DNA of 44,860 bases from an uncultured Bacteroidia bacterium. GTDB lineage: Bacteria > Bacteroidota > Bacteroidia > Bacteroidales > F082. Every line of letters starts with the position of its first letter. Positions within the stretch are counted from its first letter, which is position 1. A program made the translations under genes and the position numbers. The notes beneath the pieces were generated by a model. It searched no databases. It saw only the letters and a program-made list of their open reading frames with translations, and was not told the origin of the DNA. This document shows positions 5,070 through 33,200 of the stretch, piece by piece. Location of the stretch: NCBI GenBank assembly GCA_902783365.1, contig CACZQL010000109.1, forward strand, positions 1 through 44,860, written 5' to 3'.

Positions 5070-5099
5070 TTGCGCATCAAAACTTTATTGCTAATTTTG
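5070..5099 (+). promoter_or_regulatory. Promoter of the cobalamin riboswitch operon
   Basis: TTG at 5070-5072, a spacer of exactly 19 bases and TAATTTTG at 5092-5099 match the Bacteroidetes sigma-ABfr consensus. Transcription would begin a few bases later, immediately before the riboswitch. Confidence 0.8.
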
Positions 5100-5107
5100 T
5101 AGCCGAT

Positions 5108-5262
5108 ATTCGGTGTCCGCAAGGACTCAATAGGGAATCGGGTGTGAATCCCGTACAGTTCCCGCTGCTGTGTCGGTTGGACGCTTGCCCGTATGCCACT
5201 GTCTGACGCTGGTCGGATGGGAAGGCGGCAAGTTGAGACCCAAGTCAGAAGACCTGCCTTAT
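5108..5262 (+). promoter_or_regulatory. Cobalamin (B12) riboswitch
   Basis: The class is recognised from its conserved boxes in the correct order: CGGTGTCC, AATAGGGAATCGGGTG, TGAATCCCGTACAG, CCCGCTGCTGT, TGCCACTG, GGGAAGG and finally AGTCAGAAGACCTGCC, the B12 box (5243-5258). Cobalamin binding normally represses the downstream genes. No oligo-T terminator follows before the first start codon, so control of translation or of a non-canonical leader structure is more likely than simple attenuation. Boundaries are approximate because outer helices are not conserved in sequence. Confidence 0.95.
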
Positions 5263-5336
5263 GTCGTAAAACAAAGCTTTCGGGATAAGAGCTGGCCTTC
5301 TTATTAATTAAATAAGGTGTCCAACACCGTCCTTGA

Positions 5337-5369
5337 AGTTTTGAGTGAATGTATTATTAACTTAAAACT
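5337..5369 (+). promoter_or_regulatory. Leader hairpin between riboswitch and first gene
   Basis: AGTTTTGAGT (5337-5346) pairs with ACTTAAAACT (5360-5369) over ten positions, one of them a G-U wobble, around a 13-base loop. It ends 7 bases before the ATG at 5377. A second smaller hairpin, GGTGT-cca-ACACC, sits at 5315-5327. Either could be part of the expression platform; this is inference. Confidence 0.5.
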
Positions 5370-5376
5370 CAACATT

Positions 5377-6570
5377 ATGCGTTTCAAAAACTTTACCCTT
5401 TTGTTCCTTCTGGGAATTTTCGGCATGTTCTCATCCAATCTTCATGCCCAACAAGATGCCTCCATCAACCCCGCCGACATCCGTTATTGGATTGGCGAAG
5501 GCTCCAACGAGGTGATGTTTATTGTCAACTGGGCCGAGCCCGACACGGCACTGGCCTGGGGTTTCCGCTTTAGCGAGGAAACCATTACTGTGAAAGAAAT
5601 GATGGCCCAAATCGACGCGGCGGACTACCGTTTCACGATGGACGCCACCGACACCTACGTCAGCAATCTTACTTTTGACGACGGCTATTACCAACTCAAT
5701 GGCTCCGAATACGGTTTTTGGATGTACAACGTCAACGGCGAGATGGCCTGGGAATACTATGATACCCAAATCGTCCGCAATGGCGATTACGTGAAATGGG
5801 GTGACACCGAATGCGGCACCATCATCGACCCTGAGAACTGGGTCTATGTCTGGGAAAAGGAAGTCGTCGCTGTGTATCCCCTCGCTGAAGACGCCACCAT
5901 CGCCCCTGAAGAGATCCTCTACTGGGTGGGCGAAGGCCCCAACGAAGTGGTGTTCATCGTGAACTGGGCTGAACCCAACATCGCCCTCGCCTGGGGCTAT
6001 CGCTTCTCCGAGGAATCCGTCCTCGTGAAAGACGTGATGGATGCCATCAAAGAAGCTGACGGTCGCTTCGACTATGGCGCCGGTGCCGGTATGGTCGATG
6101 AAATCAAATTCATTGCCGGCGACCAGATCTATGCCCTGGCAGGAATGTGGTGGATGTATGTGGTGAATGGCCAAATGGCCTGGTACGGCTATGATGAGCA
6201 AACCGTGGTGAACGGCGACTACATCAAGTTCGGCGACGAGTCCTGCGCCACCGACCTCGGCCACTGGAACTACGTGTGGGAAACCCCGGTATGGCCGGTC
6301 TCGGTCAACACCTCGGTGAACGAGAGCGCCTCAAGCCTCGCCATGTTCCCCAACCCCGCCACCTCCTACACCCAGCTGGATGCCCGTAACTGGAACGCCA
6401 ATGCCGTGGTGACGGTCTCCGACCTCCAAGGCAGAATCCTTGGTAGCTACACTTTGAGTGGCAACAATGAACCCGTCATGATAGAGACTTCCAACTATGA
6501 GGCAGGTGTCTATTTCGTGACCGTGAGTGACGCCACCCGTTGCCAGACCCTGAAACTGGTGGTGAAATGA
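5377..6570 (+). CDS. T9SS-secreted protein with two transcobalamin-like (DUF4430-type) repeats
   Basis: A 397-residue secreted protein. The chosen ATG gives a signal peptide ending SNLHAQ; upstream in-frame codons lie in the leader. Two tandem copies of about 145 residues follow. Each has YW(I/V)GEG, (V/M)xFIVNWAEP and ALAWG(F/Y)RFSEE, then a (W)MYxVNGxMAW stretch and NGDY(I/V)K(W/F)GD. The last part (W, VNG, NGDYIK) resembles the DUF4430 or transcobalamin C-terminal-like fold, an inference from motif spacing. The C-terminus (MFPNPATSYTQLD to LVVK) is a T9SS sorting tail, so the protein should reach the cell surface or be released. As first gene after a cobalamin riboswitch, it is a strong candidate for extracellular capture of cobalamin or another corrinoid. 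The stop overlaps the next start as ATGA. Confidence 0.82.
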   Translation: MRFKNFTLLFLLGIFGMFSSNLHAQQDASINPADIRYWIGEGSNEVMFIVNWAEPDTALAWGFRFSEETITVKEMMAQIDAADYRFTMDATDTYVSNLTFDDGYYQLNGSEYGFWMYNVNGEMAWEYYDTQIVRNGDYVKWGDTECGTIIDPENWVYVWEKEVVAVYPLAEDATIAPEEILYWVGEGPNEVVFIVNWAEPNIALAWGYRFSEESVLVKDVMDAIKEADGRFDYGAGAGMVDEIKFIAGDQIYALAGMWWMYVVNGQMAWYGYDEQTVVNGDYIKFGDESCATDLGHWNYVWETPVWPVSVNTSVNESASSLAMFPNPATSYTQLDARNWNANAVVTVSDLQGRILGSYTLSGNNEPVMIETSNYEAGVYFVTVSDATRCQTLKLVVK

Positions 6571-7541
6571 GAAAAGTCTTATCCATATTTTTAGTTGTTC
6601 TCCCGTTTCTGTCGGTGGCGCAGTTTGCGCCCCCGGCAGGGCAGGAGGGTAGTACCGCCATCAACGCCGACTCGTCCCTGTTCGTGGGATGGGCCACCGG
6701 CTGTGTGGTGGAACGCGGCCCCGTGCGCATCGACCGCCCCCAGATGGGACTGGCATCCTACGGGGTGGAGGCCGACGCCCTGGGCAAAGCCAACGATACC
6801 CTGGTGGTGAGCCTGGGCGATGGCGGCAATGCCGTCCTCACCTTCGCCTCTCCCATTTATAACGGCGAAGGCCCCGACTTCGCGGTGTTCGAGAACCCCC
6901 TCATGTATGCCGAAGACACCACCCTCTTCTTCCTCGAACTGGGTTTCGTCGAGGTGAGCTCCGACGGGGTCAACTACCTGCGCTTCCCGGCCATCTCCAA
7001 CATCCCTGCTGAGACCCAGGTGGGCTCCTTTGCCTGTACGGACCCCCGTCTGGTGCATAACTTCGCCGGGAAATACGCCCCTCATTACGGCACGCCTTTC
7101 GACCTCGACGACCTGCCTGAGTCGGAGCTTGTCGATGTGAACCATATCACCCACGTCCGCATCGTGGATGTGGTGGGCACCATCAAACCGGAATACGCCT
7201 CTTACGACTCGGAAGGCCATATCGTCAACGACCCCTGGCCCACGCCCTTCGCCTCTTGCGGCTTCGACCTCGACGCCGTCGGCGTCATCCATGATTTGGC
7301 CCACAGCGGAGTGCAGGAACAACCCCTCCAAACCATGGTGATCGCCCCCAACCCCGTCGCCAGCACCCTCTTCGTGCAATGCGACAAGATGGTCTCGGTG
7401 AGCGTTTGCTCCCTGACCGGACAGCAACTCCTTCGCGCCGAAGGCAATACCCTCGATGTGTCGGCGCTCCCCGCAGGCATCTATCTCGCAAGGATCGTCA
7501 CCGAAAGCGAAACCTTGGTGAACAAGTTTGTAAAAAAATAA
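6567..7541 (+). CDS. T9SS-secreted surface protein of the B12 operon, function unknown
   Basis: A 324-residue protein. The ATG at 6567 overlaps the upstream stop and gives a signal peptide ending SVAQF. One large domain follows (about residues 20-245), with conserved-looking landmarks VSLGDGGNAVLTF, NGEGPDFAVFENP, VEVSSDGVNYLRFP, AGKYAPHYGTPFDL, HVRIVDVVGTI and FDLDAVGVIHD. Proteins of this pattern occur as extracellular proteins in several phyla, sometimes with sorting tails; no biochemical role is known to me. The C-terminus (IAPNPVASTLFVQ to VNKFVKK) is a T9SS tail. Riboswitch control and its place between the transcobalamin-like protein and a BtuG-like lipoprotein imply a part in corrinoid binding. 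Its DNA has the GC-rich third positions of its neighbours, so there is no sign of recent transfer. Confidence 0.8.
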   Translation: MRKVLSIFLVVLPFLSVAQFAPPAGQEGSTAINADSSLFVGWATGCVVERGPVRIDRPQMGLASYGVEADALGKANDTLVVSLGDGGNAVLTFASPIYNGEGPDFAVFENPLMYAEDTTLFFLELGFVEVSSDGVNYLRFPAISNIPAETQVGSFACTDPRLVHNFAGKYAPHYGTPFDLDDLPESELVDVNHITHVRIVDVVGTIKPEYASYDSEGHIVNDPWPTPFASCGFDLDAVGVIHDLAHSGVQEQPLQTMVIAPNPVASTLFVQCDKMVSVSVCSLTGQQLLRAEGNTLDVSALPAGIYLARIVTESETLVNKFVKK

Positions 7542-7547
7542 TATAAT

Positions 7548-8612
7548 ATGAAGAAGATAACAATATTATTGTTGATTCTGTTGCCATTCATCATTGGGGC
7601 GTGCCGTCCGGATGTTCCGAGCACCCCCGATGGTGTGGTGGTTGGCAAAGGCGTGTATGTGTTGAGTGAAGGCACTTTCACCTACGCCAACGCCAGTTTG
7701 TCGTTCTACGATCCGGAGGCCGACACGGTGGCCAACCGACTTTTCTATCGTGCCAACGGCTCGCCCATCGGCGATGTGGCGCAAAGCCTGGCCTTGATAG
7801 GCAATGACCTTTACATCGTGGTCAACAACAGCAAGTATATTTATAAGGTGAATGCCTCCTCGATTGCTTGCGACACCACCAAGCCCTTCAAACTCGGTGA
7901 CTTTTATTCGCCCCGTTACATGCTCCCTGTTTCGCCTGACAAAGCGTATGTCTCCGATTTGATGGGGAAAGACCTGTGGATCATCAACCCTCAGGATATG
8001 TCGCATACGGGTACCATCGCCATGGGCAAACCCACCGAGACCATGGTCCAGGTAGGGTCGGAGGTGTATGTGGCCAACTGGTCGAACTACTATGCCAATG
8101 ACGTGGAAAAGAACACGGTGCAGGTGGTGGATATGAATGCTGATTTGAAAGTGGCTGAAATTCAAGTTGGTAAGGAGCCTAATGGCATGGTGGTGGATAA
8201 GAATGGCCAGGTGTGGGTGCTTTGCGAAGGCGCCGCTTGGGACGAGGATGCTGAGGACCCAACGCTTTGGAGAATCAATCCGATGAGCAAAAAAGCGGAG
8301 TGCATGCTTACCTTGCAAGGCACTGCCGTGAATCTCGCTGTGGATCCTTCGGGCACTTATCTGTATTACTTCCTTGATGGAGACGTGCGTCGCACCAACA
8401 TCAACAATCCTACCGCCGAGGATGCCTTCTGCATTCCCTCGGAGGGACGTACCCTCTATAAAATCGCGGTGAACCCCAGCAACGGAGAGCTGTATGTGAC
8501 CGATGCGAAGAACTACATGCAGAACGGCACGGTGTATCGCTACTCGTCCGACGGGGTGCTGCTTTCCAGTTTCAATGCGGGCATCTGCCCCTCGTTCATG
8601 TTGTTCAACTAA
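7548..8612 (+). CDS. BtuG-like surface lipoprotein (YncE-type beta-propeller)
   Basis: A 354-residue lipoprotein. MKKITILLLILLPFIIGAC provides a signal peptide with lipobox cysteine at residue 19. The remainder consists of propeller blades with repeats such as YVLSEGTFTYANASLSFYDP, VAQSLALIGNDLYIVVNNS, YVANWSN and ITKIxVNPSNGELYVTDAKNY-like segments. Bacteroides BtuG proteins are surface-exposed propellers of this type that bind B12 extremely tightly and sit on BtuB as a lid. Here it lies in a riboswitch operon 6 bases after the preceding gene, which supports the same role. The usual BtuB partner is not adjacent. Assignment to BtuG rather than another DUF5074/YncE lipoprotein rests on the genomic context. 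Confidence 0.82.
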   Translation: MKKITILLLILLPFIIGACRPDVPSTPDGVVVGKGVYVLSEGTFTYANASLSFYDPEADTVANRLFYRANGSPIGDVAQSLALIGNDLYIVVNNSKYIYKVNASSIACDTTKPFKLGDFYSPRYMLPVSPDKAYVSDLMGKDLWIINPQDMSHTGTIAMGKPTETMVQVGSEVYVANWSNYYANDVEKNTVQVVDMNADLKVAEIQVGKEPNGMVVDKNGQVWVLCEGAAWDEDAEDPTLWRINPMSKKAECMLTLQGTAVNLAVDPSGTYLYYFLDGDVRRTNINNPTAEDAFCIPSEGRTLYKIAVNPSNGELYVTDAKNYMQNGTVYRYSSDGVLLSSFNAGICPSFMLFN

Positions 8613-8622
8613 TGCCTGAATC

Positions 8623-8775
8623 ATGAAAAAAACCTGTCCCCGCTGCGGCAAGGAATTCGAGTGTGTCCATTCCAAGGACTGTTGGTGTGCCAAGGTGGTT
8701 CTTGACGATGAAAAGCGGTCAAGACTGAAAATCTATCACGATTGTCTATGCAAGGAATGTCTCGAAAGTGTCTGA
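8623..8775 (+). CDS. Cysteine-rich CWC mini-protein
   Basis: A 50-residue protein starting MKKTCPRCGKEFEC, 10 bases after the BtuG-like stop. It has eight cysteines: a CPRCG knuckle, a Cys plus the name-giving CWC in FECVHSKDCWC, and a closing CLCKEC pair, consistent with the cysteine-rich CWC family and with zinc or other metal binding. No signal peptide, so it is probably cytosolic. Its 3' end overlaps the start of the next gene by about 19 bases, tying it firmly into the B12 operon. The function of the family is unknown. Being read in frame, with all paired cysteines kept, argues against chance. Confidence 0.85.
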   Translation: MKKTCPRCGKEFECVHSKDCWCAKVVLDDEKRSRLKIYHDCLCKECLESV

Positions 8776-9923
8776 TTCATGGCGTTTTGACGCTGGTGTG
8801 CATCGCCTGTCTCACGGTGTCGTGCCGGCATCAGACGAAGCCCGATGACACTCCTGCGAGGGGCGTTTCCAGGTCGGAGAACCTGTTTCGTTATGCTCGC
8901 AACGTGGTGGCATGTCCTACCGAATATGGTTATTGGATGGAGGTGCGCAACCCTTGGGACACCACAGCCTGCATGGGCAGGTTTGCCCTTGTTTACGATT
9001 CGCTTCGCCAGAAAGCGACCGGGTTGGAAGATGCCACCAGGGTGCGCATCCCCGTGCAGTCGGTGGTGTCGTTCTCTTCCACCCAATGGTCGGTGTTCAT
9101 GGCCTTGGGCAAGGTGGGGTTGGTAAAAGGCATCTTGGAGGGCAGGGACATCCACAGCCCGGAGATGCGCGCCTTGCTGGAGCAGGGCGTGGTGCGCGAT
9201 GTGGGTACCGAGTCGGCCAAGAACGTGGAGCTGATGATTCAGATGCATCCCGACATCTTGCTGTTTTCGCCCTATTTCGACGGCAACCAAGATCCGCTGA
9301 AAGTGACGGGTGCGGTGCTGTTCCCCTTTGCCGACTATCTGGAGAACTCGCCTTTGGGCCGCGCCGAGTGGATCCGTGTGGTGGGCCTGTTGGCAGGCTG
9401 CCCCCAGGAGGCTGACGCATGGTTCGACGAGATTGAACGCCGTTATCTGGACCTGAGGGATCTTTGCAAAGAGGTGGAACATCGTCCCACGGTGTTCTCC
9501 GACCTGCCTTTCAATGGACAATGGTATGTGGCGGGCGGAAAGAGCTATATCGCCCAGCTGTTCGAAGATGCCGGTGTGGACTATATCTGGAAGGACAACA
9601 ACTCCACGGCCAGTTTCCCCTTGGACTCGGAGACCATCCTCGCCAAGGCGCAACATGCCGACTACTGGCGGGTGGCCAACTCCTCGTCGTTGCCGATGAC
9701 CTACGAGTCGCTGAAACGCGAAAACGCGCTTTTCGCGCTTTTCGACGCCTACAAAAACCGCAAAGTCATCGTGTGCGACATCCAGCCGACAGGCTATTTC
9801 GAGACTTCCCAAATGGAACCTGACGTGCTGCTCGCCGATTTCATCTATTTCTTCCATCCGGAAAAAATGGAAATCCATAAAAATACCTATCAACCCAAAT
9901 ATTATCACCTTTTGGGGGATTGA
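8757..9923 (+). CDS. BtuF-like periplasmic-binding lipoprotein (ABC transporter substrate-binding)
   Basis: About 388 residues. The start MSRKCLIHGVLTLVCIACLTVSC gives a lipoprotein signal with the cysteine at residue 23; an ATG at 8748 and a TTG at 8742 in the same frame are alternatives. The body follows the FecB/BtuF two-lobe plan: IPVQSVVSFSSTQWSVFMALGKVGLVKG in the first lobe, then VELMIQMHPDILLFSP, an EWIRVVGLLAG segment and a second lobe with FNGQWYVAGGKSYIAQLFEDAG. In this class the protein passes cobalamin or a siderophore to a BtuCD-type permease. Riboswitch control points to cobalamin. No permease or ATPase genes follow; the operon ends here. Confidence 0.85.
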   Translation: MSRKCLIHGVLTLVCIACLTVSCRHQTKPDDTPARGVSRSENLFRYARNVVACPTEYGYWMEVRNPWDTTACMGRFALVYDSLRQKATGLEDATRVRIPVQSVVSFSSTQWSVFMALGKVGLVKGILEGRDIHSPEMRALLEQGVVRDVGTESAKNVELMIQMHPDILLFSPYFDGNQDPLKVTGAVLFPFADYLENSPLGRAEWIRVVGLLAGCPQEADAWFDEIERRYLDLRDLCKEVEHRPTVFSDLPFNGQWYVAGGKSYIAQLFEDAGVDYIWKDNNSTASFPLDSETILAKAQHADYWRVANSSSLPMTYESLKRENALFALFDAYKNRKVIVCDIQPTGYFETSQMEPDVLLADFIYFFHPEKMEIHKNTYQPKYYHLLGD

Positions 9924-22318: not shown

Positions 22319-23341
22319 ATGAACGAATATATTTTAGGCGTCGAGTCCTCTTGCGACGACACCTCCGCCGCGGTGCTTCAAGGCACGTGTGTGCTCTCCA
22401 ACGTCATTGCCGGACAGAAGGTCCACGAGAAGTACGGAGGGGTTGTCCCCGAGCTTGCGTCGCGCGCCCACCAGCAAAATATCATCCCCGTCATCGACAC
22501 GGCCTTAAAGGATGCAAATATAAACAAAAATCAATTAAGTGCAATCGCTTTTACACGTGGACCAGGACTTTTAGGCTCTCTTCTTGTAGGTGTCTCATTT
22601 TCAAAGGCTTTCGCGCAGACTTTGAACATCCCCATGGTGGAAATCGACCACATGAACGCCCATATACTGGTGCATTTTGCCACGGATGCCACCCATAAAG
22701 AGGTGCCTGACTTCCCGTTTTTGTGTCTCACCGTGTCGGGAGGCCATACCCAAATCGTGGTGGTGAAGGACTATTTTGACATGGAAGTCATCGGCAAGAC
22801 CATTGACGATGCGGCGGGGGAGGCCTTCGACAAGACGGCCAAAATCCTCGGTTTGCCTTATCCCGGAGGACCGGTGATTGACAAGCTGGCCAAGGTGGGC
22901 GACCCCAATGCCTTCAACTTCGCCAAACCGCAGATTCCAGGACTGGATTATAGCTTCAGCGGCTTGAAAACCAGTATTCTATATACTGTTCGCGACCAGC
23001 TTAAACTAAATCCGAACTTCATTGAGGAACGCAAGGCCGACCTTTGTGCCTCGGTGCAGAAAACCATCATCGACATCCTGATGGGCAAGCTGGTGAAGGC
23101 GGCCAAGCAGACGGGTATCCGCACGGTGGCCATCGCCGGCGGGGTGAGTGCCAACAGTGGCCTTCACGACGCCATGCTCGCCATGGGGGAGAAGTATCAT
23201 TGGAAGGTGTTCATCCCCCGCCTCAGCTATTCCACCGACAATGCCGCCATGGTGGCCGTCGCCGGCTATTATAAGTTCTTGAAAGGAGAGTTCGCCTCGC
23301 AGGACTTGACCCCTTACGCGAGGCAGAGTCTGAGGGACTAA
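22319..23341 (+). CDS. tsaD: tRNA N6-adenosine threonylcarbamoyltransferase
   Basis: A 340-residue enzyme of the TsaBDE complex that transfers the threonylcarbamoyl group to A37 of ANN-decoding tRNAs. Motifs include ILGVESSCDDTSAAVL, the metal-binding HMNAH (about residues 109-113), LTVSGGHTQIV, the glycine-rich GLPYPGGP and GGVSANSGL, and a final STDNAAMVA. Length fits the bacterial family. It is divergent from tamB across a 65-base gap. Its stop codon overlaps the stop of the convergent giant surface-protein gene (CTAA at 23338-23341). A stretch of about 115 bases (22500-22615) is much richer in A and T than the flanks. Confidence 0.97.
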   Translation: MNEYILGVESSCDDTSAAVLQGTCVLSNVIAGQKVHEKYGGVVPELASRAHQQNIIPVIDTALKDANINKNQLSAIAFTRGPGLLGSLLVGVSFSKAFAQTLNIPMVEIDHMNAHILVHFATDATHKEVPDFPFLCLTVSGGHTQIVVVKDYFDMEVIGKTIDDAAGEAFDKTAKILGLPYPGGPVIDKLAKVGDPNAFNFAKPQIPGLDYSFSGLKTSILYTVRDQLKLNPNFIEERKADLCASVQKTIIDILMGKLVKAAKQTGIRTVAIAGGVSANSGLHDAMLAMGEKYHWKVFIPRLSYSTDNAAMVAVAGYYKFLKGEFASQDLTPYARQSLRD

Positions 23342-26300
23342 TCGCGGGCCGAGCCAAACGTCACCGTTTTGGTGGTTTCGGCGTTCGATACATACACATA
23401 TCCTTGGCCAGGTTGGAGGTGTTCCAAGGTACCGTTCCAAGTACCATTCTCAAAGATGGCGAAGCCTTCGTCTTGCGACACAATCTTGTCCCCCTCGCAG
23501 GGATTGAAACCTGCAAAAGCCGTCGTTATGGCCGTAGCCTCCAAGCCCGTAAAGCCGAACCAGTTGTAGTGAGGTTCGAGGGAGACGGTGACCGAAGCAG
23601 GTCTGGTGCCGCTTATCGTGAGGATGCAGTCAGTCGAGGTCTTGATGCGGACCATCTCTCCTGGGACAACGTCGCCAACAGCGGTTCCATTTTTCGTTTG
23701 GATTTCCAACAGGTTATCGCCAAGGGCGGTTTGTATTGATGTAACACTGGTCTGCAAGTTGGGAGCGATCCAGTTCCAGCCTTGGGAGAGGGTGAGGCGC
23801 TGGAAAAGACCGAATTCGTAGGCTCCCATGTCGATTTCTCCTCCTTTCACCCTTGGCTCACCGGCAAGGTCAACGGCGAGCGGATCGGGATTGAGCAGGG
23901 TGACATCGCCAGCATTGATGCAGGGCGAGCCCTCCTGCAAAGTCCAGTCGAAATCCAAGGGATTCACGTTCTCATCATAGCCCAAATAGGTGGTCGGGTT
24001 GACGAAGAGCGGGTCGTTCTCGTTTCCTTCGCTTCCACTAATTTGCTGGCTCACCAGCGTGTTGTTCATGTTAAGTTCATACTGACAATCCCAAATGTTA
24101 TTCATCCACGTTGAATAACCAGAAATAATGCAATTGTTAAAATCAATAATGCTCTTTCTGTCGCTTTCTCCCAAGTTCTCAAGTATAAATAATTCATCAC
24201 TGGTATTGGCAATAGTTGTGTTGTTTAAGGTGGTGTGGATGCCATCGATTTGGAAGAATCCGTCCTGATTGTTCACAATCAACGAGTTATTAATTGTCAA
24301 CTCGTGATTGTTTCTGATGGTACTACTGAGGTTGGAGTTATGTGTCGGATGGCTGTTGGCAATGACACATCTTTCCATGACCAAAGAGCCATTCACTCCA
24401 ATGGTACTTCCATCCAAACCGGAGTTGCCCTCGAACACGCAATCTGTAGCAGTGGCTGTTCCCTCAACATAAAGCGCTCCGCCATCTGTTTCTATTGACT
24501 CGATAATAACACTGATAGTTCCTCCTGTCTCAGGATTTCTCCAAGGCTTGTTTCCTACGTTTCCTCTGAAAAGGCAATTCGCGATATCAGCGTTTCCTAT
24601 CACAGACAATGCTCCTCCCGAAAGAGTACCGGCATTGTTGTTGATGAAGTTGCAATGGTCAACGTAACTGTATCCCCCAGCCTCAATGCCAGAAGTTCTT
24701 CTGCTGGGGTAGATAGCGGAATTCGTGGGGTAATGAGTGGCAGTGTAGTAGTTGGAATAGTTGTTTGTGATATTGCAATTGACCAGTTCAAGGGAATCCC
24801 AAATCGACATGACGGCGATATAGTGTTCAGAACGATTGTTGTTGAAGGTGGTATTGTGAATCTTCATTTTTCCTGGACTCAGAATGGTTCCGTATTTGTC
24901 AGCAGTGTTATCTTCGAAAGTGGTGGCGTCAATTTCCATGGCACCGCTGTTGAAAATGGCCCCGTTGTTTTCGCTGTAATTGGATTGGAAAGTACAATTG
25001 GACAAGGCAACCGTACCATGATCCATATTGCACAAAGCACCTGCAATAGCATAGACAAGACGACCCATATATTGTTCCCCAAGTTCATAGGTGTGGTTGT
25101 TCGACAACTCAGAGTTTGTAATCTCCAAGGCGCCCAAGTTGCGAATGCCACCCTCACGGTTGTTTTGCACGCGGCATTGGTTCAGTTTTGCAGTGGTGTT
25201 TTCATTGACAAGAAGAGCACCTTGGCGAGTGGCAGTATATCCTTTGGTAAGGGTTAAGCCGTCCAAGATGGCTTTTTGACTCCACATGGAGTTGGTCGGA
25301 GCGGTGGTGAATATACCATCTGTATTGTTGGTTTCATTATCATCTCCTTGGAGCTCACCAGAAAAGATGGTCAGATTGTTTTCCATGTCGCGTTCTTCGA
25401 GGGTGGTCTCGTCGCCTGCAAAGCCTCCATACACACTGACACCTTCGTTCAAGATGAAATGCTTTGAGGCATCCGAGTCCCCACAAGGGAGATAGGCGCC
25501 GCTGGCCACCCAAAAACAATCGTCGCATTGGGCATGCTGGAGGGCGTCGGCAAGTTTCGTGTAACCGCTTTCCAAGACCGTGTTGCCATCCAAAGCATTG
25601 GCCCATGAAGAGCCGTCCTTGGTTCCTGCTCCGCTTTCGCTGACAAAAAGATAATTCGTATGTCTCACTCGTAGATACAGCATGACAAGGGAGTCGCAAG
25701 AACCAACCGTCCAACGATGTTCATAGGTTCCAGTCTCATTCAAGGAAGTGCCATAGAAATCGTAGGTTTCCCCTTCTTCGATGGTAGCCTCCCTGACATC
25801 CATCTCCTTACATGTCGCATCGAAAGACGATTCATACACGCCTAAATCGACTTGGCCATGCTGAATGCGCTCCATTTTGTTGAGGTCAAAGGTCGGAATG
25901 GTCAAACCTGAAACATTATTGGAGCCAGCGTTAATGCACAACGAAGCCTCTTGTAACTGCCAATCGCCTGTCGATTCGGTGACACCAGTTTCCGTTACTG
26001 GATCAACAAAATACGGCCCGAAAATTCCCGTATTGTCATGCGATAACGGAATATTGCCGCTGGCGGTGTTTCGGAGTCCCTCTATGGCACAATGGCTCAT
26101 GTAAGTGTTGTGTATCGATATGGCTGAACTATAAGAGAAGCTCTCTCCGTCGTTTCCCCAAACAATGGTGTTATAGAGATGGGCGCATTCATTTTGTTTG
26201 TCAATTCTGGAGTAGATGCCATCGCCTTTGTTCTTTAAGATGTTGCATTGCAACAAATCGGATTGATGGACATAGAGACCACCACCCTCCATGGAAGCTT

Positions 26301-29300
26301 GGTTGTTGCCGATATGCGACTGGACGATTTGGCTGTTAGATGCATACATGCCTCCACCTTGCTGGGCGGTGTTGTTTGTCACGAAACAGTCCTCGATGTT
26401 TGAATGCTCGGCATAGACACCTCCACCTTGCTGGGCGGTGCTGTTTGTCACAACACAGTTTTCCACCGTGGCATTTTCGGCATATATGCCACCGCCTTTG
26501 TCGGAGGCTGTGTTAAACTCCAAGACGCAGTTCGCAAGCGTCATGTTGTCTAACAGATAGGCACCGGCACCGTTGTCGGCATTACCGTAATGAATCGTGA
26601 AGCCATCCGCCACGGCGGCGGTGGTTTCGCTCAACGCGGAGCCTTGGTTCAAGACACGCAGCGTGTTGTTTCCGTCCAACACCGAGGCATGGTTGACCAA
26701 ATCTCTTTGCGACAGATCGTAATCGGCGGGCTCGTTGCCCTCGAAACCGCCATATAGCTTCAAGTGCTCTTTGACTTGGAATGGGGAATCAGTAACCGTA
26801 TAGGTGCCTTGTGCCACCCAAATGGTTGTCGGAGAATCGTACAAGACAGAAGCTTCCAAGGCTTCCTGTAAATTGGAAGTGGCATTGGCCCATGAGGAAC
26901 CATTGCCTTGGCCATTCTCTTTTACGTAGATATAATTGTTGGCATCGGGCTGAATGGGGAACTGATAGTTGGGCTTTTCGTAAGGTGACTCAAAGGCGCC
27001 TATGTCAATCCGTTCTTGCTTAATGCGTTGATTTCCATCAAGGTCGTAGTCCAAATAGTCAGTGAGAGTGGTGAACCCTGTATTATAGCAGAAAAAAGAA
27101 TCTTTTTCAGGAATGTTTGACAAATTCTCCCCACCCATATTGATGCAGGGCGAGTTTGCTTTCAGGGTCCATACACCATCAGTGTAAGCCGATCCGACAC
27201 CAGAAGAAGGATGTTCAAATTCAGGGAACACACCTTCTTCATTGGAATCGCTTGATAAATTAATGCAAGGATATACTCCGTTCTTGCCGCTTAATCCTCC
27301 TTGAATCGCGTTGTTGCTGACATAATAGGGTCTGGACCATTGCCAATCTTGTTGTTGTGTGTTTCCCCAAACAATACTGTTGCAAAGGACGATGTCCATG
27401 CGAGAGAAATATTCGCTAATTCCTAATCCATTGTTGACGATGGTGGAATTGATAATGTAGTCGCAGCTGGCCCCCAATCCGTCGTTGTTGGCCACAAGAC
27501 AACCTATCAAGGCTCCGCCCATCGTGGATAGCATATAGAAACCATTGCCGTTATTGCAAATCTTGCATCTGATGCACATGTTGCCCAATACGCCGTATCT
27601 TTCGTTATAGGTTATGGTGCAGTCTCTAATATCAAGGTGATCCCAAGAGTTATTCTGGCTGATACCGTCCCGTGCATGATATGACACTTCGTTGTGGAAA
27701 CAATCCAAGCCGCCGCTATCCACAAAAATGCCGGTCCACTCTGAATGCAGCACCTTGCAGTTTTGCACTTTCGAGGTGCCTTCATAAACATAGAGGCATC
27801 CTTGTCCACCATATTGCATCACAAATCCATCCCATTCGCTTGACTGGGTACAGACTACAAGGCAATGGCTCTCCGCATCCAATATGGTGGCGTTGTTTTC
27901 CAAATCGCGCTGCGACAAATCATAATTGGCGGGTTCGTCGCCGTTGAAACCTCCGTACAACTTGACACCACCATGTCCCAAGAAACAGCATGTTTTGCCA
28001 TTGCCTGTTTGGTAAACGCCATTGGCGATATAGGTACCTTTAGATACCCAAACCATAGGTTGGTTCTCCGAATAATCAGCCGCGGCATCAATAGCGGCTT
28101 GAATGCTGGAGGCGGCATTGGCCCACGAGGAACCGTCTTTGATGCCTGCGCCCGTTGGGGTCACATAAATGATGCTGTCGGATGTGACATGGATGTCCCT
28201 ATATGTCGAGAATGACCAAACAGGGCCTTCCGTTATTCCTGAACCGTTGCGTTCGTTGACTCGCCAATAATACGTTTTGGCACTCTCGGTTACCACATCA
28301 TGGTTTTCAGCCAATTCGTTTGTCCAATCCACTAAAACGCCAGTGGGAGGGTTGGTTTCTCCGAAAAGCAGTTGGTATTCTTTGGTATAGTCGCCGAGAT
28401 GCCAGCTCAGTGAAACCGTTTCATCGCCATAGCAGTTGTAACCATCCACTGGCATGGGTGAAGTCGGCACTTCGGGTACAGGGATGACCATTGCATCGAT
28501 GTTCACCATGAACTCGTCGCTGGTTGATGAAGCTAATAAATAATAGGAGCCCTGGGGTATGGGCAATCCGCAATTTAACGAAATAGTGTGGGCATCCCAA
28601 AAGAACACGTCATCCACATAAAAACAGTCGTCATTGCGACACCAGTCCTCATCTTTTGTGTACTCCCATTTGAAAGTATGTAAGCCTTGTGGCACTTCAT
28701 AGCTGTAAAAAATCCAATCACCATCGCCACTGATGCCATCTATTTTTGCGACTTCATCAATGAAAAAGTATCCTTTGTCACAATTGGTCTCAGAGGAAAT
28801 CCTAGCCCAAAAACTCATCGTTATGTTATATGGCACATAGCGTGTGAAAGAAATACAGCTTGAAGAGTTCCCGGACCAACAACCAAGATTTGATTTCATA
28901 CAGTAGGTGCCCGAATGAGGGTTGTTTGTTGTTACCGTCCAATCTTCGTATGAATTAGGAGCCTCTAATACCCAATCCAGATTGCCGAGATCCCCGTTCT
29001 CGAAATCGCATTGGCAGTCCGTGATGTCAGTGCCAAGGCCATTAAAATAATTGTCCGATAATGGCCCACCTTGTTCGTCGAAACCCTCTTGGTAAAGCGC
29101 CACTTTGCCGTTTTCTCCATCGGAAACGACGGCACTTAAAATAACATCTGAGTCAAAAACAAGATGGAATACGGCATCTTTACCATCGGGCATCTTACCT
29201 GGAAGTCGGTAATTGTCCTTGATGGTCATCTCACTTGTGATGGCTTCGGAATATGGGAAAGTGGTTACTTCGCGTGCCAATTCCCATACGTCGGGCGTAG

Positions 29301-30246
29301 TTGGGTTGTATGCAGTTGCATTGATGGGGAGGTCTAAGGTCTTGTTATTGCCGTAGTTAATGCTGAAAAGTCCATTTTGGATGCCATCTCCTATTCCAGA
29401 AATAATGGAATAAGGGATGGTATCCATTTCTAAATAGGAAAAGGGTACTTGGGGGGAACTAAAAGTAAAATAGGGATTGTCACATGTTACAGAATGAATA
29501 CTTCCCGGTATTCCTTCATTAATGAAAAAACCATAAAATGGTTCAATCCAATAACCATTGGGTCGAAATCCCATTTGTACAACCTCTGGTTCACGTATTA
29601 GTTGTTCTGAGACTATTCCCAGCTTGATATTGGGACGAAAGTCAGATATCACACCCACGGAATTAGGTTCAGGCAAAGGCCAAGCCCAGTCGCCTTTCAA
29701 TGACGCACCTTGGGACGTGGTTCCATATAATCTAAATAAGTTTGGGTTCATCACGTATGTATTAGCGTTAAAGCCAATTGTCAAGTTGCCTCCTTCATAG
29801 AAAAAAGGATGGTCTAGAACTAATGTAGTCCATCCTGGTTCAGAGAAAATGTCCTCCAAATAATTTGTGTTCTCATAAACAAGCGTCATGTTTTCAGCAG
29901 GAGTCCATCCTGTTACTGATGTATGATTTATGTTGTCGGTTGTTCCTAAATATATAAAGAGGTTTCTGTTTAAATAACCACCATAGCATTCTTGGACGAC
30001 ATCAAATGAAAGAGAATAAATCATGCATGGCTCTCCAAGTGCTGCGGCGGGATAAATGACCTCTGTGTATGCAGATGGCCATCCCTCGGAACAGGCGTTA
30101 AATGGAATTTCACAGCTTGTCTCCGTCCCGTCGCCGATGATGATTTCTGTCAGAGTAGTGTTTTGGGCAGGGGCGCTGAAGAATAAAGCCAAGGCTGTCG
30201 TTAAGAATAGGGTAGGCAGCCATTTTTGCGTAACATATCGTCTCAT
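23338..30246 (-). CDS. Giant secreted parallel beta-helix protein with extra N-terminal adhesin-like domains
   Basis: A 2302-residue protein with a signal peptide ending SAPAQN. Residues 30-210 resemble the N-terminal beta-sandwich of Bacteroidetes adhesins (IGDGTETSCEIPFNACSEGW, RNLFIYLGTT). A second beta part and a MAM/cleaved-adhesin-like domain follow (about 400-590, SFWARISSE, YVDDVFFWDA), then a fibronectin-like unit (about 600-685). Three beta-helix modules start near residues 689, 1102 and 1532, each opening with a DGSSWANA-type motif and YGGF.G(D/N)E. They contain Pmp-like repeats such as NNTAQQGGGMYASNS. Choice-of-anchor Q-like segments (SPCINAGD, DMGAYEF) close the modules. The end is a GWNW/YNWFGFTG double repeat without a T9SS tail. 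A role in adhesion or glycan binding is likely but unproven. Lower GC than its neighbours. Confidence 0.85.
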   Translation of the reverse strand: MRRYVTQKWLPTLFLTTALALFFSAPAQNTTLTEIIIGDGTETSCEIPFNACSEGWPSAYTEVIYPAAALGEPCMIYSLSFDVVQECYGGYLNRNLFIYLGTTDNINHTSVTGWTPAENMTLVYENTNYLEDIFSEPGWTTLVLDHPFFYEGGNLTIGFNANTYVMNPNLFRLYGTTSQGASLKGDWAWPLPEPNSVGVISDFRPNIKLGIVSEQLIREPEVVQMGFRPNGYWIEPFYGFFINEGIPGSIHSVTCDNPYFTFSSPQVPFSYLEMDTIPYSIISGIGDGIQNGLFSINYGNNKTLDLPINATAYNPTTPDVWELAREVTTFPYSEAITSEMTIKDNYRLPGKMPDGKDAVFHLVFDSDVILSAVVSDGENGKVALYQEGFDEQGGPLSDNYFNGLGTDITDCQCDFENGDLGNLDWVLEAPNSYEDWTVTTNNPHSGTYCMKSNLGCWSGNSSSCISFTRYVPYNITMSFWARISSETNCDKGYFFIDEVAKIDGISGDGDWIFYSYEVPQGLHTFKWEYTKDEDWCRNDDCFYVDDVFFWDAHTISLNCGLPIPQGSYYLLASSTSDEFMVNIDAMVIPVPEVPTSPMPVDGYNCYGDETVSLSWHLGDYTKEYQLLFGETNPPTGVLVDWTNELAENHDVVTESAKTYYWRVNERNGSGITEGPVWSFSTYRDIHVTSDSIIYVTPTGAGIKDGSSWANAASSIQAAIDAAADYSENQPMVWVSKGTYIANGVYQTGNGKTCCFLGHGGVKLYGGFNGDEPANYDLSQRDLENNATILDAESHCLVVCTQSSEWDGFVMQYGGQGCLYVYEGTSKVQNCKVLHSEWTGIFVDSGGLDCFHNEVSYHARDGISQNNSWDHLDIRDCTITYNERYGVLGNMCIRCKICNNGNGFYMLSTMGGALIGCLVANNDGLGASCDYIINSTIVNNGLGISEYFSRMDIVLCNSIVWGNTQQQDWQWSRPYYVSNNAIQGGLSGKNGVYPCINLSSDSNEEGVFPEFEHPSSGVGSAYTDGVWTLKANSPCINMGGENLSNIPEKDSFFCYNTGFTTLTDYLDYDLDGNQRIKQERIDIGAFESPYEKPNYQFPIQPDANNYIYVKENGQGNGSSWANATSNLQEALEASVLYDSPTTIWVAQGTYTVTDSPFQVKEHLKLYGGFEGNEPADYDLSQRDLVNHASVLDGNNTLRVLNQGSALSETTAAVADGFTIHYGNADNGAGAYLLDNMTLANCVLEFNTASDKGGGIYAENATVENCVVTNSTAQQGGGVYAEHSNIEDCFVTNNTAQQGGGMYASNSQIVQSHIGNNQASMEGGGLYVHQSDLLQCNILKNKGDGIYSRIDKQNECAHLYNTIVWGNDGESFSYSSAISIHNTYMSHCAIEGLRNTASGNIPLSHDNTGIFGPYFVDPVTETGVTESTGDWQLQEASLCINAGSNNVSGLTIPTFDLNKMERIQHGQVDLGVYESSFDATCKEMDVREATIEEGETYDFYGTSLNETGTYEHRWTVGSCDSLVMLYLRVRHTNYLFVSESGAGTKDGSSWANALDGNTVLESGYTKLADALQHAQCDDCFWVASGAYLPCGDSDASKHFILNEGVSVYGGFAGDETTLEERDMENNLTIFSGELQGDDNETNNTDGIFTTAPTNSMWSQKAILDGLTLTKGYTATRQGALLVNENTTAKLNQCRVQNNREGGIRNLGALEITNSELSNNHTYELGEQYMGRLVYAIAGALCNMDHGTVALSNCTFQSNYSENNGAIFNSGAMEIDATTFEDNTADKYGTILSPGKMKIHNTTFNNNRSEHYIAVMSIWDSLELVNCNITNNYSNYYTATHYPTNSAIYPSRRTSGIEAGGYSYVDHCNFINNNAGTLSGGALSVIGNADIANCLFRGNVGNKPWRNPETGGTISVIIESIETDGGALYVEGTATATDCVFEGNSGLDGSTIGVNGSLVMERCVIANSHPTHNSNLSSTIRNNHELTINNSLIVNNQDGFFQIDGIHTTLNNTTIANTSDELFILENLGESDRKSIIDFNNCIISGYSTWMNNIWDCQYELNMNNTLVSQQISGSEGNENDPLFVNPTTYLGYDENVNPLDFDWTLQEGSPCINAGDVTLLNPDPLAVDLAGEPRVKGGEIDMGAYEFGLFQRLTLSQGWNWIAPNLQTSVTSIQTALGDNLLEIQTKNGTAVGDVVPGEMVRIKTSTDCILTISGTRPASVTVSLEPHYNWFGFTGLEATAITTAFAGFNPCEGDKIVSQDEGFAIFENGTWNGTLEHLQPGQGYVYVSNAETTKTVTFGSARD

Positions 30247-30291: not shown

Positions 30292-33200
30292 TTAATCGCG
30301 AGCGCGAGCCGAACCAAACGTCACCGTTTTGGTGGTGTCGGCGTTCGATACATACACATATCCTTGGCCGGGTTGGAGGTGTTCCAACGTGCCGTTCCAG
30401 ACACCATCCTCAAAGATGGCGAATCCTTCGTCTTGTGACACAATCTTGTCCCCTTCGCAAGGATTGAAACCTGCCAAAGCCGTTGCTATGGCCGTGGCCT
30501 CCATGCCCGTAAAGCCGAACCAGTTGTAGCCGGGTTCGATGGAGACGGTGACCGAGGCGGGTCTGGTGCCGCTTATCGTGAATGTGCAGTCAGCCGAAGC
30601 CTTGATGCGGAGCATCTCTCCCGGGATCACGTCGCCAACAGTGGTTCCGTCTTTGGTTTGGATTTCCACCAGGTGGTCGCCAAGGGCGGTTTGTAGAGAG
30701 GTGATGCTGGTTTGCAGGGTAGGGGTGATCCAGTTCCAGCCTTGGGTGAGGGCGATGCGTTCGAAAGGACCGAATTCGTATGCTCCCATGTCGATTTCTC
30801 CACCCTTCACCCTTGGCTCACCGGCAAGGTCAACGGCGAGTGGATCGGGATTGAGCAGGGTGACATCACCAGCATTGATGCAGGGCGAGCCTTCTTGCAA
30901 AGTCCAGTCGGCATCCAATGGATCCAGGTTCTCGTCATAGCCTAAATAGGTTGTCGGGTTGACGAAGAGCGGGGCGTTGATGTCTTGGCTTACGAAAGTG
31001 AGGTTTGTGTTTACTACACCCTGGTTGCCAACTTGTGAGAGCGACCATGCTGAATATCCCGCGACAATGCAATTGTCAAGATCAATGATGCTTTCGCCAA
31101 TAACTCTCTCGAATTTAAATGATGTGGCATCTGAGTTGACAAGGGTCGAGTTGATGATTTTGACATGGCAATCGCCTTGGACATCGATGTTGCCATCGCG
31201 GTTGTTGGCCAACAAGCAGTTTTTGAGCGTCAAATCGCCAGAAACTTTGATGGCGCAATATTTATCACTAATACAAGGAATGCTGTTGACGATTTTGCAT
31301 CTCTCCATTGTCAATGAACCTTGCCAAACACCAATGGTGCTACCCCTGTAACCTACATTCTCGCTAAACACACAGTCTGTCGCCAGGACATTTCCTTCTA
31401 CATAAAGCGCGGCGCCGTCAGGATCGCCAATCATGACGTTAACGGAAATGTTTCCACCAGGATTATTGGGATCTTTCCATGCGCCAGCACCTTTGTTGCC
31501 TATAAAGTTACAGTTTTTCACATCAGCGGTTCCCATAATGGAAAGTGCTCCACCAAGACAAGTGCCAGCGTCGTTGTTAAGGAACTGGCAGTGATCCACA
31601 TAACTATTACCCCAGGCCTCGATTCCGGAGGTTCTGTGGCCTGGATAGTTTGTGTTGCCAGTAGGGAAGTGGGTGGCCGTATAATAGTTGGAATGGTTGT
31701 CGCTCAAAGTGCAATTGACCATTTCAAGAGAATCCATCACCATCATCACACCAAGGCGGTTCTCGGCCCTGTTGTTATGAAAGATGGTGTTGGTCAATCT
31801 CACCTTACCTTGACTGAATATGGTTCCAATTCTGTCGGCTGTGTTGTCCTCAAATATGGTTTCGTTGGCGCTTAAAACACCAAGGCTGAAGATGACGCCA
31901 TTGCTCTCACTGTAGTTGGACTCGAGACTACATCGCTCAAAAGAAACAATGCCATGTTCCATATTGATTAATACGCCGGCGCCAAAGTTGATGGAACCAC
32001 TGTAATCGGGAAGATTCATAAAAATACCGCCCTCCATTTCCCTTCTGTTGTTTGAAAGCACAGAGTTACATACTTCCAAAAATCCTTGGTTATAAATACC
32101 GCCCTCCCTGTTCTCTGTAATTTGACATTGGTTGAGCGAAACCAGGGTGCCTTCGCCAATCCAAAGCGCCGCACCTTTGTTTGAGGCGTTATAACCTTTT
32201 GTAATGATGATTCCGTCCATGCAAGCGTTTTCTTTCCATAAAGTAGTAGCGTCATTTGAAATGAAAATGCCATCTGTATTGTTGGTTTCATCATCATCTC
32301 TTTGCAATTCGCCAGAGAAAACGGTCGATTCGTTTTCAAGGTCACGCTCGTCAAGCGTAGTTTCATTGCCTGCAAAGCCACCATACACACTTACACCTTC
32401 GTTTAGGGTGAAGTGTTTTGAGGGATCCAAGTCGCCGCACGGAAAATATGTTCCACTGGCAATCCAGAAACAGTCATCGATTTGTGCTTGAAGAAGGGCA
32501 TCGGCCAATTTGGTATAGCCGCTTTCAAGAAGGGTGTTGCCGTCCAAGGCGTTTTCCCAGGAGGAGCCATCCTTGTTGCCAGCACCGTTTTCACTCACAT
32601 AGTGGATTTGGAGATGAACAACCCGAAGATTCAGTTGGACGATGGAATCGCACGAGCCTACAGTCCAACGATGCTCATAAGTTCCAGTCTCACTCAATGG
32701 AGTTCCGTAGAAACCATACGTTTCTCCTTGATTGATGGAGACATGTCGAACGTCAATCTCAGAGCATGTTGCCTCGTAAGGTGACTCAAACACGCCTAAA
32801 TCTACATGGCTGTTTTGAATACGGGGTTCATTGTTGAGGTCTTGAATAGGCAAGGTCATGTTGAGGACCTCATTCATTCCGGCGTTGACGCACATTGAAG
32901 CGGCTTGAAGTTGCCAATTGCCTGTTGATTCCGTGACACCTGTTTCGACGATGGGGTCAACAAAGTAAGGCCCGAGAGCTCCAGTATTGTCATGGGAAAG
33001 TGGGATATTACCATTGGAGGTGCTTTGTAAACCTTCCACCGCACAATGGCACAGAAGCGTATTGCGTTTGGCCATGCTGGAGCTGTAGCCGAGACTGCTC
33101 TCGCTGTTTCCCCAAAGAATGGAATTATAAAGGTGATTGAATTCATCCACGTTGTCTATCTGTGAAAACAAGCCGCCACCCGTGTTTTTGAGGATGTTGC

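Follow-up and report, generated by a model that had tools for sequence, protein, structure and literature searches.

The operon and its riboswitch

A five-gene operon (g1 to g5) behind a cobalamin riboswitch, located on contig CACZQL010000109.1 of an uncultured Bacteroidia bacterium (Bacteroidales; F082; assembly GCA_902783365.1), probably provides the surface-capture side of vitamin B12 (cobamide) uptake, working with BtuB and BtuCD in trans. The window, meaning the whole stretch of DNA analysed, spans 44,860 nt. The first two proteins carry type IX secretion system (T9SS) tails; judged by sequence, g1 falls in a transcobalamin-type family and g2 is related to BtuH, both of which are new with respect to the preliminary description of this DNA. 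That description had claimed a cobalamin riboswitch ahead of five packed genes, two proteins with T9SS tails, a BtuG-like propeller, a CWC mini-protein and a BtuF-like lipoprotein, all of which were borne out (Table 1). It had also claimed that transporter genes were lacking, and no btuB, btuC or btuD was recognised by eye among window open reading frames (ORFs) of at least 90 amino acids (aa). Family-library scans covered the five operon proteins, other window ORFs being judged by eye.

The riboswitch match spans the full length of the RF00174 model, whose gathering score is 31.5 bits. RF00174 was likewise found in 38 of the 39 g2-containing stretches covered by the scan (37 of 38 distinct ones, the exception being L056), as well as in 15/15 scanned loci out of the 16 close named loci (L081-L094, L096 and L101), the sixteenth, L088, being the same region as L043, where a riboswitch was found too. 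The consensus promoter proposed earlier stands in part: its TAnnTTTG box lies at the 5' edge of the aptamer in 19/19 loci, window included (at -2 in 13 and -1 in six), whereas a TTG is placed 17-25 bases ahead of this box in only 10/19. Downstream, g1 and g2 overlap by 4 bases (ATGA) and g4 and g5 by 28 bases, the g2-g3 and g3-g4 gaps are 6 and 10 bases, and all five reading frames are intact. The operon would be regulated by cobamide shortage via the riboswitch. A switch helix after the aptamer was unsupported, since 15/200 shuffles fold as well as the leader at 5276-5400.

Table 1. Features of the operon and its leader, with window positions and family matches.
Feature	Position	Strand	Description	Match
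Promoter-like site	5070-5099	+	Bacteroidota type: TTG 5070-5072, 19-base spacer, TAnnTTTG 5092-5099	
Cobalamin riboswitch aptamer	5094-5275	+	RF00174	101.9 bits, E 1.7e-24
g1	5377-6570	+	Signal peptide-like start (by eye), two DUF4430 repeats, T9SS tail	PF14478 46 bits (cut-off 23.8); Por_Secre_tail 40.5 bits; TIGR04183 40.2 bits (cut-off 23)
g2	6567-7541	+	Conserved N-terminal domain, T9SS tail	TIGR04183 34.9 bits (cut-off 23)
g3	7548-8612	+	BtuG-like beta-propeller lipoprotein, lipobox IIGAC (by eye)	PF16819 (DUF5074) 69.8 bits; top-scoring BtuG structure, chain 8p97_B (6.1e-52)
g4	8623-8775	+	50-aa cysteine-rich CWC protein	PF14375 (Cys_rich_CWC) 42.6 bits
g5	8748-9923	+	BtuF-like periplasmic-binding lipoprotein, lipobox LTVSC (by eye)	PF01497 (Peripla_BP_2) 88.6 bits

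The T9SS-tailed proteins g1 and g2

In g1, two DUF4430 stretches (~5455-5865 and ~5887-6303) precede a T9SS tail starting at ~6343, and on this Pfam match g1 is assigned to the transcobalamin/intrinsic-factor beta-domain family, as tandem repeats. In vertebrate cobalamin-binding proteins DUF4430 forms the C-terminal domain (PMC4350170), and the order of helix then hairpin is reported to mark the transcobalamin-like clade (PMC1796856). In the g1 model (pLDDT 83.3, pTM 0.59) each repeat shows strands, a helix and then a hairpin. Foldseek placed T9SS tails at the top, with the human transcobalamin beta domain 5no0 at rank 26 (E 0.013, probability 1.00, TM 0.59 by target) and transcobalamin-CD320 chains at ranks 34, 44 and 45, along with many Ig-like chains whose E-values are comparable or better but whose probability is mostly lower. 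Against PDB sequences, g1 gave no match at E 1.

The N-terminal part of g2 (~residues 20-244), followed from ~7341 by the T9SS tail, matched no Pfam or NCBIfam family above cut-off; comparison of the g2 family with PDB sequences gave three chance-level matches only. The family occurs in 84/295 genomes of the order, including the genome studied here (match E 5e-36 or better); a wider tally of 108 includes matches to the T9SS tail only. A comparison set of 20 BtuG loci was taken from genomes without a g2 domain match, and in 12 of these a second family adjoins BtuG/BtuB. The nine-domain profile of this second family matched 7biz_A at 1.3e-100 and residues 395-659 of 8blw_B at 1.4e-78, which are BtuH2 and a BtuG-BtuH fusion, respectively (PMC10404256). 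Aligned by hhalign, the g2 profile (122 sequences) matched the BtuH profile (10 sequences) with P 3e-8 and probability 95 (2.9e-7 in the reverse direction), against P 0.0078 for a reversed g2 alignment and 0.05-0.7 for other families; further local matches were weak (P 0.036 and 0.24) but followed the main match in colinear order. In a set of 2211 ORFs, the weaker matches (E < 0.01) of the BtuH hidden Markov model (HMM) were g2 proteins in 51/51 cases, and those of the g2 HMM were BtuH in 7/7.

Like BtuH2 (7biz), with which it shares its gene neighbourhood, g2 has the motif SLGxGG...DFxxF(G/E)N and, more weakly, GxxFD(L/I)...LDxxxI and PAxGQ, all in the same order. Residues Gln333 and Asn399 of BtuH2 contact the ribose and phosphate of the ligand (PMC8941943) and correspond, by our own count, to positions 233 and 299 of the aligned chain. 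Asn399 aligns with Asn110 of g2 (6894-6896), which is Asn in 122/122 g2 proteins; the possible counterpart of Gln333 is Gln in 58/122. Unlike BtuH, g2 has a shorter domain and a T9SS tail and lacks alignable ring contacts, the similarity being at profile level only. The g2 model (pLDDT 93.1) had beta-glucuronidases as top structural matches (TM ~0.2). Chain 8blw_B came at rank 46 (E 1.1e-3, probability 1.00; the aligned part of the chain was not visible), its query-normalised TM of 0.35 being the highest among the best 50 rows, from which BtuH2 itself (7biz) was absent. On these comparisons g2 is classed as BtuH-like rather than as BtuH, with remote homology at family level. An assignment of g2 to DUF4465 was rejected, with no Pfam match and hhalign P values to PF14717 of 0.52, 0.22 and 0.44.

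The gene slot before g2

A total of 122 g2 proteins were collected across Bacteroidales, 117 of them distinct. The preceding gene encodes a g1-type (DUF4430-related) domain in 30/117, DUF4465 in 31/117 and a BtuG-related propeller in 25/117 (six of these being ordinary BtuG, in the order btuB-btuG-g2); it has other content in 10/117, it is absent or truncated at the end of a contig in 9/117, and in the remaining cases g2 is fused to g1-type repeats (6/117) or to DUF4465 (6/117). One of three unrelated B12-linked folds therefore stands before g2, or is fused to it, in 98 of the 117 distinct loci, and such folds seem to swap within one gene slot. The g1-type calls were made with a custom HMM of the g1 repeats, 19 of the 30 coming from the window's genus. 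Pfam itself reports DUF4430 in only six of 68 slot proteins (chosen from 97 by dropping genus repeats, short pieces and plain BtuG), and of the six g1-type/g2 fusions scanned one matched DUF4430 at E 0.0008, below cut-off, and five did not, so that it is resemblance to g1 that carries the DUF4430 label beyond the genus. A T9SS tail was found in 63/68 slot proteins and DUF4465 in 29/68, and the T9SS propellers matched the BtuG family profile with P 3.1e-18.

The g2 family also keeps company with known uptake genes, BtuB or BtuG lying within 6.5 kb of g2 for 94/117 distinct g2 genes. BtuH was present in 0/121 g2 loci versus 12/20 loci without g2 (Fisher p 1.6e-12, uncorrected for relatedness and with the two locus sets chosen differently). 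Behind cobalamin riboswitches in two other loci (L131:4238-11389 and L139:3025-9735) are proteins of 2383 and 2236 aa with four and three g1-like stretches, respectively, a g2 domain, fn3 repeats and a T9SS tail, and no Pfam DUF4430. A 929-aa T9SS-like protein with a BtuG-related propeller (L196:1217-4006) adjoins a BtuH-T9SS protein, BtuB and BtuG, and BtuH domains followed by T9SS-like tails were seen by eye in L188, L192, L196, L198, L202 and L203. Display of B12 catchers through the T9SS may thus be wider than g1 and g2.

It is unlikely that g1 and g2 are structural or docking parts rather than catchers, holding the surface complex or opening BtuG-BtuB, with corrinoids bound only by BtuG and the DUF4465 protein. 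Precedents exist in Bacteroides thetaiotaomicron, where BtuL is without cobalamin binding although its operon functions in uptake and BtuK1 binds whereas BtuK2 does not (PMC12751083), and the lack of alignable BtuH ring contacts in g2 would fit; however, the Asn matching BtuH2 Asn399 is invariant, and the genes that occupy the slot ahead of g2 encode folds with links to B12 binding. In a more specific arrangement, g1 and g2 would clamp a single corrinoid between them at the surface, the transcobalamin-type domain closing on the BtuH-type domain much as the two domains of animal transcobalamin close on their ligand. The g1/g2 overlap, the constant genus neighbourhood and the six distinct g1-type/g2 fusions would fit this bacterial counterpart, but we consider it speculative and rather improbable. 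If true, the large proteins (2236-2383 aa) that carry three or four g1-type repeats would be multi-site versions.

The lipoproteins g3 and g5

For g3, both B12 binding and a role as a lid on BtuB are predicted by analogy with BtuG, BtuB not being encoded beside it. The protein g5 is a candidate BtuF, its matches in NCBIfam being to generic, siderophore and haem binders (FhuD, IsdE), all below their cut-offs. As these are its only curated matches, the operon might instead handle a different tetrapyrrole or a metal chelate, such as haem or a complex of iron or cobalt, the riboswitch merely tying it to cobalamin status. This is very unlikely, given that each of g1, g2 and g3 leads to a family for which cobalamin binding is known or predicted and that DUF4465, a B12-binding family (PMC13398666), recurs beside or fused to g2 at the frequencies given above.

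Separation of the capture genes from btuB

The genome studied here is a draft of 2.75 Mb in 154 contigs, 84.4 percent complete. It contains a BtuB orthologue (C117:11670-13556, scoring under the threshold of the E. coli-type BtuB model) and a single recognised FecCD gene (C138:17397-18347), which is followed by an ABC ATPase gene. With g5 as candidate BtuF, a complete pathway in trans is thus conceivable; no BtuF-like gene lies beside the FecCD gene in the stretch seen. The preliminary description had suggested looking for btuB, btuC and btuD behind other cobalamin riboswitches, and the BtuB and btuCD-like genes do exist elsewhere, with no riboswitch found before them. Two cobalamin riboswitches were found in the genome, that of the window and one at C153:4043-4209, which directly precedes the gene for a 1059-aa protein (L010:4236-7415). 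This protein combines DUF4465 (181.1 bits) with a T9SS tail and has a sub-threshold Pfam match to a beta-helix; DUF4465 proteins bind B12 (PMC13398666). Two genes also score above the cut-off for the T9SS sortase PorU (1152.9 and 973.4 bits against 420).

The five-gene order recurs in close relatives, as had been proposed for checking. All five genes are present in 5/16 close named loci, g1-g2-g3-g5 with the CWC gene not recognised in 4/16, g1-g2-CWC-g5 in 1/16, g1-g2 with or without CWC in 5/16 and g1-g2-btuB-btuG in 1/16, with btuB not in the fetched stretch of 15/16. Of 99 genus genomes, 93 have BtuB (query from L091), 75 have g2 and 71 have both. In these 71, g2 and BtuB are adjacent once (G295, that is L091), on different contigs in 66 and on one contig ~33-240 kb apart in four (G201, G315, G355 and G374). 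The architecture, first described as unusual, is typical of one genus, and elsewhere g2 most often stands directly before btuB (56/107 g2 genes).

That the split is an artefact of the draft assembly or the mark of a decayed locus is highly improbable. Genes on different contigs of so fragmented and incomplete a draft cannot be placed exactly, but the five operon reading frames are intact, and g2 and BtuB are non-adjacent in 70/71 genus genomes, including the well-assembled G286 (8 contigs). Simple loss of btuB from the draft was rejected on the orthologue at C117 and the split across the genus.

The gene orders suggest how the split may have arisen. L091 has a synthase-like gene, a MORN-like gene, the riboswitch, g1, g2, btuB and btuG, and C117 has a synthase-like gene, small extra genes, a MORN-like gene and btuB, the respective identities being 72 percent (synthase-like), 46 percent (MORN-like) and 56 percent (btuB). 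This comparison suggests, as the simplest history, that the riboswitch, g1, g2 and btuG moved away and btuB stayed. A sister group is split differently: there riboswitch-btuB-btuG has kept the original site, and riboswitch-g1-g2-CWC lies at another (G286: L206, L209; G383: L208).

In genomes of the window's kind, no RF00174 was found ahead of btuB in 20 regions (up to 3.2 kb, two shortened by contig ends), nor at C117, making 21 genomes. ORF calling recognised btuB in 18/20 of these regions, and a MORN-like gene precedes it in 15/18. Against this, a riboswitch lies directly upstream of btuB in G376 and G341, in which BtuB has diverged just as far from the L091 protein (57 and 56 percent), and in at least 27 other genus genomes. 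As a B. thetaiotaomicron operon with no recognisable riboswitch is still cobamide-responsive (PMC12751083), loss of btuB control in the window's kind is not proven. In another Bacteroidales genome an Acido-Lenti-1 sRNA (RF01687, 42.5 versus 37 bits) was noted ahead of btuB (L181:1720-1764, minus strand).

Elsewhere in the window, the operon neighbours resemble an aldo/keto reductase and a zinc-ribbon protein, as judged by eye from their translations. A FeoB-like gene is located at 38323-40680, and nine stretches from relatives have a similar gene adjoining their g1-g2 operon. Two adjacent secreted-looking proteins of 2302 and 1653 aa with near-identical N-termini are encoded on the minus strand (23338-30246 and 30292-35253), and a tRNA gene is cut off by the contig end (1-78, minus strand).

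Proposed mechanism and comparison with known systems

In Bacteroides, BtuG caps BtuB as a lid, which BtuH is believed to load (PMC10404256). By analogy, cobamide shortage would turn the operon on through the riboswitch, g1 and g2 would leave via the type IX system, anchor on the cell surface and bind scarce corrinoids, and these would be handed to the BtuG-like lid g3, which would load BtuB from another locus; g5 would then pass corrinoids to BtuCD, also from another locus. BtuG would be made under riboswitch control and BtuB would not. The earlier proposal placed the capture by T9SS proteins outside the cell. T9SS type A cargo is usually surface-anchored, which favours the cell surface instead, and the relay is retained here as a proposal.

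Several observations weigh against this scheme. Corrinoid binding by g1, g2, g3 and g5 is a prediction from sequence, the fold support for g1 is modest (5no0 at rank 26, E 0.013), and the leader at 5276-5400 has no significant structure (fold z -1.26, with the shuffles given above). The BtuH HMM misses the window's own g2 even at E 100, so that the link to BtuH holds between families only, and the BtuH2 ring contacts His476, Tyr510, Trp511 and Trp577 have no aligned counterpart in g2. In addition, all 46 near-complete clean genus genomes have BtuB and FecCD and only 35 have g2; the capture module is therefore an aid rather than an essential part, dispensed with in 11/46.

The proposed capture system shares with the Bacteroides BtuB-BtuG-BtuH-BtuJ loci the riboswitch, the BtuG-like propeller, the BtuF-like lipoprotein, accessory surface binders and the presence of several loci per genome (PMC10404256, PMC12751083, PMC8941943). 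It differs from the loci described there in that its catchers end in T9SS tails rather than being lipid-anchored, that a transcobalamin-type protein is present, and that btuB and btuCD lie outside the locus, with no riboswitch detected before btuB. The SLBB-clade/DUF4430 proteins of Gram-positives and planctomycetes resemble g1 in family, in the modelled helix-then-hairpin order and in a B12-scavenging role predicted from context (PMC1796856); unlike them, g1 consists of T9SS-tailed tandem repeats beside BtuG rather than beside CbiO/CbiQ-type transporters, and no alpha/alpha toroid domain was seen. DUF4465/BtuJ (PMC13398666) holds the slot before g2 in many relatives and stands behind the second riboswitch of the genome studied here, whereas g1 and g2 were not DUF4465 in any profile test. 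Among the open-access papers listed, none was seen to join DUF4430 or T9SS to B12 capture in Bacteroidota, which does not prove absence; DUF4430 and cobalamin do occur together in a paper on vertebrates (PMC4350170) and, reportedly, in one on a lactobacillus.

The proposed system would extend the repertoire of Bacteroidota B12 catchers from lipoproteins to T9SS-tailed proteins and place a transcobalamin-type domain on the surface of a gut-type bacterium, and the widespread g2 family gains a likely relative and function. With catchers and pore at different loci, probably under different control, these bacteria may offer a natural case for testing the two layers of uptake apart.

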